In this document: one piece after another, positions 12,534 through 15,022 of the stretch
Layout of the letters: every line of letters begins with the position of its first letter
How positions within the stretch are numbered: position 1 is the stretch's first letter
Source of the DNA: Hyphomicrobium nitrativorans NL23
GTDB lineage: Bacteria; Pseudomonadota; Alphaproteobacteria; Rhizobiales; Hyphomicrobiaceae
DNA length: 64,000 nucleotides
Assembly: GCF_000503895.1 (NCBI RefSeq)
Contig: NC_022997.1
Location: forward strand, 1,074,501 to 1,138,500
Direction: 5' to 3'
Notes under the pieces: model-generated
Seen by the model: only the letters and a program-made list of their open reading frames with translations
Told to the model about the DNA's origin: nothing
Databases searched by the model: none
Translations under genes and position numbers: made by a program

Positions 12534-13472
12534 CTAGGCCAACGCGGCGATGAGATCGTTGCGCTGGTCTTCCGTCAATGCGGGGCCGAACCCGGCCTTC
12601 AGGTTGTCGGCTTGGCGGTGAGGCTTGCCCGTTGCGGGGATCACGACCGTCACCGCGGGATGGCTAAGCGCAAACCGCAGGAACGCCTGCGCCCACGATG
12701 TAATGCCGACTTCGGCGGCCCAGGGCGGAAGCTCCTTGTCCGCGACCTTCGCAAACAGCTTTCCATCCTCGAACGAGCGGTTGATCATGACCGCGACGCC
12801 GAGGTCCTGCGCGAGCGGCAGAACGCGCTTTTCCGCGCCGCGCGTGACGGCGGAATAGTTGATTTGAAGGAAGTCCGGCTTTTCGGCCTGGACGATGTCG
12901 GCGAGGCGGTCCTGCGCCTGCTCCAGATAATGTGTCACGCCGACGTAGCGGGTCTTGCCCTGATCCTTGAGTTCGCGACAGAGCGTGAGCTGCGTTTCGA
13001 GATCGCCCAGGTTGTGGACCTGAAGCAGCTCGACCTTGTCCGTTTTCAGACGCTTCAGCGTGTCGTTGAACTGTGCGAGCCCCTGGTCGCGGCCTGTAAC
13101 GCCAGAGATCTTGGTTGCGAGCCATGCCTTCGGCGTCAGCCCGGCGTCGGCAAGGAGCGCACCCATCACATCTTCGGCGTTGCTGTAGGTCGGTGCGGTG
13201 TCGATGACCTTGCCGCCTCCCTCGAAGAAGATTTTCAGGACTTCGCGGAGGTCTTCATACTCCGGCGTGCCAGGGGTGACTTCGAAGCTGCCGGACGTGC
13301 CCATGCCGACGACGGGGATTTGCTCACCCGTGGAGGGGATGGCGCGGGTTGCCATCGCGTTTTTTGCCGCGCTCTCGGCGCGTGCGCCGCCGACGCCTCC
13401 CACCAGCGGGCTTAGCGCCAACGCTGCGGCCATTGACGAGGTCGAGGCGAGGAAGCTCCGGCGGGTCGGCAT
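12534..13472 (-). CDS. Aldo/keto reductase with Tat signal
   Basis: A 312-residue protein of the aldo/keto reductase superfamily behind a twin-arginine signal (TRRSFLASTSSMAAALALSP), so it should act in the periplasm. The barrel shows VIDTAPTYSNAEDVMGALL (the region with catalytic Asp and Tyr), WLATKISG (lysine) and LLQVHNLGD (histidine). The C-terminal cofactor region holds TVVIPATGKPHRQADN. Periplasmic members of this superfamily are unusual, because NADPH is not normally available there; the electron donor is unknown. The ATG at 13472 has GGAG eight bases upstream. It forms an operon with the transporter that follows four bases later. Confidence 0.88.
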   Translation of the reverse strand: MPTRRSFLASTSSMAAALALSPLVGGVGGARAESAAKNAMATRAIPSTGEQIPVVGMGTSGSFEVTPGTPEYEDLREVLKIFFEGGGKVIDTAPTYSNAEDVMGALLADAGLTPKAWLATKISGVTGRDQGLAQFNDTLKRLKTDKVELLQVHNLGDLETQLTLCRELKDQGKTRYVGVTHYLEQAQDRLADIVQAEKPDFLQINYSAVTRGAEKRVLPLAQDLGVAVMINRSFEDGKLFAKVADKELPPWAAEVGITSWAQAFLRFALSHPAVTVVIPATGKPHRQADNLKAGFGPALTEDQRNDLIAALA

Positions 13473-13514
13473 GTCTCGTTCTCCTTCGGGCGACGGGAGT
13501 GGTTAACCCATCGC

Positions 13515-13542
13515 AATATAGGGCCCGATCCCCGATGTGCCA
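13515..13542 (-). promoter_or_regulatory. Candidate promoter of the aldo/keto reductase operon
   Basis: On the minus strand TGGCAC (13542-13537) and TATATT (13520-13515) are 16 bases apart and end 43 bases before the ATG at 13472. The -10 is good, the -35 only moderate. The call is by eye. Confidence 0.35.
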
Positions 13543-13584
13543 GCCTGCACACCGGGTTGATTTTGTTCGCGGACGATTGGGCGA

Positions 13585-13845
13585 GGTAAAACGGACGGGC
13601 CCCCCAGCGGGGGAACTGGGGGGCCCTCTAAATCGAGCGTCGCCAAGCGTGGGTGGGGGGAGCCCGTGGCGACGCTCCGTCTTACCAGAGGCGGGGGGGA
13701 ACGCTCTGGCAGATCTGGGAAGCCAACACGGGGAGAGCGCTTTGGTTCCCGGAAGAACCATGCAACTTGTGGAGGGCTGATCGCTGTTCCGCGCGGAACA
13801 GGCGCCTGTCACCTCACCGGGTGCGCGGAATTGTCCCGGCAGGCG
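13585..13845. ncRNA. Candidate structured non-coding RNA (multi-hairpin, three-way junction)
   Basis: No credible gene lies between 13473 and 13890, but the stretch is packed with long stems. P1 pairs 13585-13593 with 13678-13686. It encloses P2, a perfect 11-bp stem (13597-13607 / 13616-13626), and P3, a perfect 10-bp stem (13635-13644 / 13668-13677) that abuts P1, giving a three-way junction. Further stems are 13685-13690/13704-13709 or the competing 13702-13707/13734-13739, then 13744-13748/13755-13759, the 18-base palindrome 13784-13801, and nested stems 13803-13808/13840-13845 and 13817-13821/13835-13839. On the plus strand five loops contain GGA. On the minus strand the loops are C-rich and the single P1 mismatch becomes a G-U pair, so the strand is undecided. 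I match no known RNA family. Confidence 0.35.
13784..13801. repeat. Perfect 18-bp palindrome
   Basis: CTGTTCCGCGCGGAACAG reads identically on both strands. It could be a hairpin of the candidate RNA or a dimeric repressor's operator; nothing else distinguishes these. Confidence 0.5.
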
Positions 13846-13854
13846 AGGGCAGGG

Positions 13855-13879
13855 AAAAAAGAGGCGCAATTTGCGCCTC
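13855..13879 (-). terminator. Rho-independent terminator of prfB
   Basis: GAGGCGCAA pairs perfectly with TTGCGCCTC (13861-13869 / 13871-13879). On the minus strand the stem is followed by six U (13860-13855). It starts 12 bases after the prfB stop. Confidence 0.85.
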
Positions 13880-13890
13880 CCCTTCGTCGA

Positions 13891-15022
13891 TCAGTCGAGG
13901 TCCGCGATTTCCGCGGGCCCGCCGCCCCGCATCCGGTGCGCCAGTGTCGCTTCGATGAAGAGATCGATGTCGCCGTCGAGAACCTCGTCCGGGTTCGAGC
14001 TCTGCTCGCCGGTGCGCAGATCCTTCACGAGCTGATACGGCTGAAGCACGTACGAGCGGATCTGGTGTCCCCAGCCGATGTCCGTCTTCGCCGCCTGGTC
14101 TGCGGACGCCTTTTCTTCCCGCTTCTTCAGTTCGAGGTCGTAGAGGCGGGCTTTGAGCCGCTTGTAGGCGATGTCCTTGTTCTGGTGCTGGGAGCGCTGC
14201 TCCTGGGCGAAGATGACGATGCCGCTCGGTCTGTGGACGAGGCGTACGGCGGACTCGGTCCGGTTCACGTGCTGGCCGCCGGCGCCGCTGGAACGTGCGA
14301 ACGAAATGTCGACGTCGGCCGGGTTGATGTCGACGTCGATCGAGTCGTCGATGACGGGATAGACCGTGACGGACGCGAAGCTCGTGTGGCGGCGTGCGTT
14401 GGAATCGAAGGGCGAGATGCGCACCAGCCGGTGCACGCCCGCTTCCGTCTTGAGCCAGCCGTACGCGTTCTCGCCCTGGATTTCGAGGGTCGCCGACTTA
14501 AGGCCCGCTTCTTCGCCGGGGCTCTCGTCCACGATCCTGACCTTGAAGCCGCGCCTCTCCGCCCACCGCAGATACATGCGGGTCAGCATGGCGGCCCAGT
14601 CCTGGCTCTCCGTGCCGCCGGCACCGGCGTGGACTTCGATATACGTATCCATGCCGTCGGCTTCGCCAGACAGCATAGCTTCTATGCTTTTACGCTGAAC
14701 TTCCGCGTCGAGCCGCCTCAGTGCGCCTTCGCCCTCGGTAACGGTCGCTTCGTCGGATTCCGACTCGCCGAGTTCGATCAGCGTGACGTTGTCCTCAAGC
14801 TCGCGTTCGATGCGGCGGAAGTCGGTGAGGGACTTTTCGAGTTGTTGGCGCTGGCGCATGACGCGCTGGGCTTCGCCAGGGTCGTTCCAGAGCGCAGGAT
14901 CTTCCGCGCGCCGGTTGAAGTCGGCTAGACGTGCCTCTGCTTGTTCCGGGTCAAAGATACCTCCTTAAGAGGTCGAGTGCCTCTTCGATGGAGCTGACAG
15001 TTTTCTGCGCTTCGGCGCGCAT
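13891..15022 (-). CDS. prfB: Peptide chain release factor 2 (programmed +1 frameshift)
   Basis: The complete product is 376 residues and spans two frames. Frame one starts with ATG at 15022 and reads 23 codons to an in-frame TGA at 14953-14951. A +1 shift at CTT TGA C continues as LDPEQAEARLADFNRRAED into the main frame, which ends at 13891. The peptide anticodon SPF (RISPFDS) marks RF2 rather than RF1, and the catalytic GGQ is seen in SSGAGGQHVNRTESAV. RF2 releases nascent chains at UGA and UAA codons in the ribosome. The shift makes its own synthesis depend on RF2 level. It is followed by a strong terminator and preceded at some distance by the PBP1A gene. Confidence 0.97.
14951..14965 (-). 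promoter_or_regulatory. RF2 programmed frameshift site
   Basis: Reading 5' to 3' on the minus strand: AGGAGG (14965-14960), three bases TAT, then CTT TGA, followed by C. The internal Shine-Dalgarno at this spacing, the slippery CUU and the poorly terminating UGA-C are the canonical elements of the prfB autoregulatory frameshift. Confidence 0.95.

Follow-up and report, generated by a model that had tools for sequence, protein, structure and literature searches.

Conservation and covariation give good support for an undescribed small RNA gene encoded by the minus strand of the DNA analysed (the window, 64,000 nt of the single-contig, 3,653,837-base NL23 genome). The gene is ~165–170 nt long (13588–13757, minus strand; matched at 138.8 bits by model R2 in its own genome) and lies in the intergenic region 13473–13890, between prfB, encoding release factor 2 (13891–14859), and an aldo/keto reductase gene (12534–13472), both minus-strand open reading frames in the ORF list. 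Taken as a whole, the reading that we favour, and hold to be rather probable, is a Hyphomicrobium-specific, trans-acting RNA with its own promoter, whose C-rich loops would pair with G-rich stretches of mRNA and whose synthesis would be controlled through a palindrome. Rfam, applied at its gathering threshold, returned no family anywhere in the window. A repeated or mobile element was considered and rejected, the locus being single-copy in its own genome with no copy on plasmids.

Strand and hairpin architecture

An earlier note on this DNA had described a non-coding, highly structured stretch between prfB and the reductase gene, and folding bears this out: the minus strand of 13585–13845 reaches −117.9 kcal/mol (z −3.69), a value equalled by none of 200 shuffles. 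The plus strand of the same interval gives a z of only −1.63, with 14 of 200 shuffles as good. The RNA structure contains 19 G-U pairs when read on the minus strand and 4 on the plus strand, and a terminator scan places an intrinsic terminator at the RNA end on the minus strand. These three lines (terminator, G-U bias and folding energies) assign the RNA to the minus strand, settling a choice that had been left undecided, and it is the alternative with C-rich, anti-Shine-Dalgarno-like loops that proves correct.

The other alternative, a plus-strand CsrB/RsmZ-like RNA that sequesters CsrA, drew on the several GGA motifs found in plus-strand loops. The terminator and G-U bias on the opposite strand speak against it, as does the host: csrA (PF02599) is absent from the complete genome by a search that detects the gene in both Escherichia coli and Bacillus subtilis. 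Nor are GGA loops conserved on the transcribed strand, where the loops are C-rich; the plus-strand GGA of the 13685–13709 loop is lost in several relatives, whose SL1 loops read ...UACCCCC.... We treat the CsrA-binding proposal as refuted, with practically no residual probability.

Read 5′ to 3′, the RNA would be built from four hairpins. SL0 (13717–13750, minus strand), with the sequence GGGAACCAAAGCG-CUCUCCC-CGUGUUGGCUUCCC, folds in all eight species in which the RNA was found. SL1 (13681–13712, minus strand; core 13709–13685) carries a loop with CCCCCCC and shows changes on both sides in 8 of 11 pairs; its core is a stem that had been proposed before and is real, being conserved in the eight species. 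SL2 (13635–13677, minus strand), formerly called P3, presents the loop GGGCUCCCCCCACCC and has both-side changes in 6 of 11 lower-stem pairs. SL3 (13597–13626, minus strand), formerly P2, is the intrinsic terminator found by the scan; it is kept in eight species, has the C-rich loop UUCCCCCG and is followed by a T-containing tail, GTCCGTTTTACC (13585–13596, minus strand). The loops of SL1–SL3 display C runs of 4–7 in every species. The 3′ end is placed at the T-run, and the 5′ end would lie at about 13757–13751, judging from a −10-like box and from where SL0 begins.

Across the eight aligned sequences 95.5% of cells in the four-hairpin structure are paired, falling to 43–52% when the partners are slid by 1–3 columns. 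Covariation comprises 16 pairs and 28 cells with both-side changes, a level reached by 0 of 500 shuffles, which is a strong result of a shuffle test on eight sequences and not a formal R-scape test. In the first alignment, SL1–SL3 alone had 15 pairs changed on both sides. Stems are variable in SL1 and SL2 and conserved in SL0 and SL3; because the latter two vary so little, the covariation support comes mainly from SL1 and SL2. The proposal of an undescribed structured RNA is thus upheld, and that of a three-way junction (P1–P3) survives in part. P2 and P3 are conserved in eight species, with the compensatory pattern residing mainly in SL1 and in SL2 (P3), but P1 (13585–13595 with 13678–13688) is present in NL23 only, with 69% of cells paired and its covariation matched by 161 of 500 shuffles. 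Since relatives do not keep P1, conservation does not extend to the three-way junction. Of the further hairpins suggested within 13720–13845, a conserved one does exist at 13717–13750 (SL0, previously unnamed); the others are of different kinds, with a conserved palindrome at 13784–13801 that resembles a protein-binding site in its behaviour and, beyond this interval, a terminator-like repeat of prfB at 13855–13879.

SL0 aligns as GTGGGAAC...GTTCCCAC, enclosing an AGCG/CGCU inner stem and a CCCUCCC loop. The loop is CUCUCCC in NL23 and CCCUCCC in most relatives, with CCUCCC and UACUCCC also found among the eight species. One compensatory pair is present (a C-G replaces a G-C in genome G066), and insertions match on both arms: in several species the CCAA that follows GGGAA is paired with additional TTGG-type sequence in the 3′ arm. 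The same block, conserved as GGAAC-N16/17-TGTT, was initially favoured as a general-stress promoter. EcfG promoters follow the pattern GGAAC-N16-17-CGTT, which the boxes and spacing resemble, and the block is kept in all eight species; the RNA would then begin after it and consist of three hairpins only. That view was demoted once the block was seen to form a hairpin whose loop is conserved. Its spacer is conserved too, the pairing 3′ arm is present in 8 of 8 species, the second box is TGTT and not CGTT, and the hairpin beats shuffles in which both promoter-like boxes, GGAAC and TGTT, are held fixed (z −2.4 to −3.7). We consider an EcfG promoter here unlikely and retain SL0 as the first hairpin of the RNA.

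Distribution, neighbours and putative control region

A DNA search of 103 family genomes gave matches in eight (NL23 and seven relatives), all of the same genus. The relatives' loci are 70–79% identical to that of NL23 and align over the whole RNA. Model R2 scores 135–164 bits across these eight genomes, with one main copy in each. Outside the genus it finds only look-alikes below 36 bits, in a search covering the remaining family genomes, 397 genomes from the order and 385 from the class, and the prfB neighbourhoods of relatives beyond the eight hold no such RNA. One genus member, G063, has a second and weaker copy (41.4 bits; L127, G063:C393:1852-2023) behind an alanine-dehydrogenase-like gene. 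Elsewhere in the order, family f36 has a related RNA pair (L117 and L118, 29–35 bits) with the C-rich loops UUCCCCUC and UUCCCCCC.

The reductase gene and prfB (62–87% protein identity to the listed relatives) each adjoin the RNA in 7 of the 8 genomes. By release factor 2, the closest relatives that carry a name belong to Hyphomicrobium. On the prfB side, an inverted repeat followed by six T (GAGGCGCAAATTGCGCCTCTTTTTT, 13855–13879, minus strand) is likely to be prfB's own terminator and would set prfB apart from the RNA, although a stricter terminator scan does not call it. The reductase gene begins ~125 bases past SL3 on the same strand, an arrangement that would also fit a cis-acting leader, with SL3 as a regulated terminator (attenuator). 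We found no conserved antiterminator pairing, the one candidate that reaches the tail, P1, not being conserved, and in G069 the full RNA occurs without the reductase gene, guaA and an ArsC-like gene on the opposite strand coming next. In G064 it is prfB that is missing within 1.5 kb upstream, its place being taken by a gene that is transcribed divergently and carries a c-type heme motif (CRTCH). Both genomes retain the RNA and its upstream palindrome. This persistence while flanking genes change argues for a gene of its own and not a leader or 3′ UTR product; we judge attenuation of the reductase gene very improbable.

The palindrome, CTGTTCCGCGCGGAACAG (13784–13801), is a putative operator conserved upstream of the RNA in eight species, with half-sites CTGTYCC and substitutions in two or three of the eight. 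Its right half overlaps a weak −35-like box, GGAACA (13790–13785), and a weak −10-like box, TTGCAT (13760–13765, minus strand), follows at a position conserved in the alignment (TTTATG, TTTAAG, ATTATG, TTTATT or TTTCAT in relatives). A consensus promoter scan calls neither box; the palindrome overlaps what is probably the promoter of the RNA. Exact copies number ~4 per genome in most genus genomes (1 to 8), versus 0–1 for a reversed control, and the two halves vary independently, as a protein-binding site would. It is probably the operator of a regulator, or else a small dispersed palindrome. CTGTYCC-N4-GGRACAG recurs in the same intergenic spots across several species (including L143, L144 and L145), among them before a gene starting MKLTIIGSSDAFGSGGRLQTCFHV and near a gene with a DNA ligase LigA-like product. 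Its sites come back in a few intergenic spots, and the genes beside them form no clear regulon.

Comparison with ar14/cuckoo and other C-loop RNAs

Judged on sequence and predicted structure, the closest known kind is the alphaproteobacterial ar14/cuckoo sRNAs (RF02344; NfeR1/Smr14C2, SmelA075 and SmelA099); the RNA appears to work like them, and the features compared do not show it to be a member of their family. Shared features are several stable, stacked hairpins with variable stems, free-standing genes and the repetition of one C-rich seed in unpaired loops, that of the terminator hairpin included. Cuckoo RNAs have 2–4 hairpins with poorly conserved stems and one conserved loop motif that they share; here all eight species show four hairpins whose loops are C-rich, with a motif that differs from the published one: the loops are C4–C7 or CCCUCCC, not CCUCCUCCC, which has 0 copies in the eight species, whereas three bona fide ar14 loci contain 3 copies apiece. 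There are four hairpins against three in ar14 (terminator included), with SL1 and SL2 the variable stems and SL0 and SL3 the conserved ones. The RNA is single-copy as a rule, whereas many ar14 genomes have several, and the palindrome upstream of it is not like the LsrB and NtrC sites at nfeR1.

The Rfam family that scores best below its threshold is ar14, at 33.4 bits (E 1.6e-4 in a small search), 25 bits under the cut-off of 58.8. The relative G069 gives 32.9 bits, and the other six have no match at E ≤ 0.5. In the reverse direction, the RNA's own model finds bona fide ar14 loci at 17–33 bits. Such scores can be inflated by C-rich loops alone, the actinobacterial 6C family (RF01066) also reaching 28.7 bits (gathering cut-off 47); Rhizobiales-2 (RF01723) gives 29.2 bits (E 0.17; gathering cut-off 40). 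Searching the NL23 genome with ar14 picks out two weak places elsewhere, at 27.2 and 17.9 bits, the former (L009, G000:C1:2612776-2612856) being possibly another C-loop RNA; the locus itself does not appear in that search, probably owing to its first-look filter.

Common descent with ar14 is possible. A strongly diverged but true ar14/cuckoo member, whose CCUCCUCCC loops would have turned into pure C-tracts by drift within Hyphomicrobium, would account for the shared layout, for the rank of ar14 as best sub-threshold Rfam match, for the ar14 loci found by the RNA's own model and for a sister-genus RNA in G079 with a loop that contains CCUCCUCCC. Set against this are the missing motif in all eight species, the sub-threshold score and the distribution of ar14 proper, which exceeds its cut-off in 41 of the 249 order genomes and gives no match at E ≤ 0.001 among the genomes listed for the RNA's own family. 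We regard true membership as a tentative and somewhat doubtful reading. The G079 RNA itself (L125, G079:C2:465065-465191) has C-rich loops, a terminator and CTGTTCC/GGAACAG arms upstream at wider spacing, and is a possible bridge to ar14.

More distant likenesses exist. Actinobacterial 6C/B11 likewise carries stretches of about six C in its hairpins, the terminator loop among them, but it belongs to a different phylum and has fewer hairpins, besides its sub-threshold score. CcsR1–4 (CIN1) of Rhodobacter are cuckoo-type hairpin RNAs of alphaproteobacteria; they lie clustered behind a DUF1127 gene with an RpoHI/RpoHII promoter (PMC10253847), unlike the single RNA behind prfB described here, beside which no DUF1127 gene was noticed.

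Predicted action and meaning

We propose that a free-standing sRNA is made from the minus strand, starting at a promoter of its own shortly after prfB and ending at SL3, and that its synthesis would be controlled by a regulator binding CTGTYCC-N4-GGRACAG. The four stems would serve as rigid supports presenting short unpaired C-rich loops (CCCUCCC-type in SL0, C4–C7 in SL1–SL3). These loops would pair with G-rich stretches of mRNA, most likely at or near translation starts, lowering translation and mRNA stability, possibly with Hfq. That the RNA acts in trans by base pairing, probably turning genes down, is suggested because C-loop precedents exist, hfq is present in the genome and csrA is not. 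Such loops pair with G-tracts near ribosome-binding sites in mycobacterial B11/6C (PMC12395582), staphylococcal IsrR (PMC9410917) and NfeR1/ar14 (PMC7143759, PMC10746234). PmaR of Agrobacterium tumefaciens likewise engages targets through an accessible C-rich loop, but is a single spoon-like hairpin that mainly activates and acts mostly away from ribosome-binding sites (PMC6234868).

Within the window, loop pairing had no clear preference for translation starts over gene interiors (39 crude ORFs), the SL0 loop averaging −6.98 kcal/mol at starts and −6.79 kcal/mol in interiors. The real ar14 motif, put through the same test, prefers starts (−5.96 versus −4.90). This leaves plain Shine-Dalgarno blocking unestablished and makes selective pairing with G-tracts no less likely. 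A further reading would make the RNA a separate, Hyphomicrobium-confined family independent of ar14, whose pure C-tracts read G-tracts generally under an undescribed CTGTYCC-N4-GGRACAG-binding regulator; this is conceivable, if not what we expect. Were it true, G-tracts would be read in coding regions or other RNAs, beyond Shine-Dalgarno sequences, in a genome of 64% G+C.

Hyphomicrobium is a model of methanol-fed denitrification. A literature search found no small RNA described in the genus, and the NL23 genome paper counted a single noncoding RNA (PMC3894282). RNAs with several C-looped hairpins are widespread in alphaproteobacteria, where repeats of one seed let them silence many mRNAs. A version confined to one genus and built on another loop motif would show how seeds of this kind evolve, and the RNA offers a concrete test target in a methylotroph.
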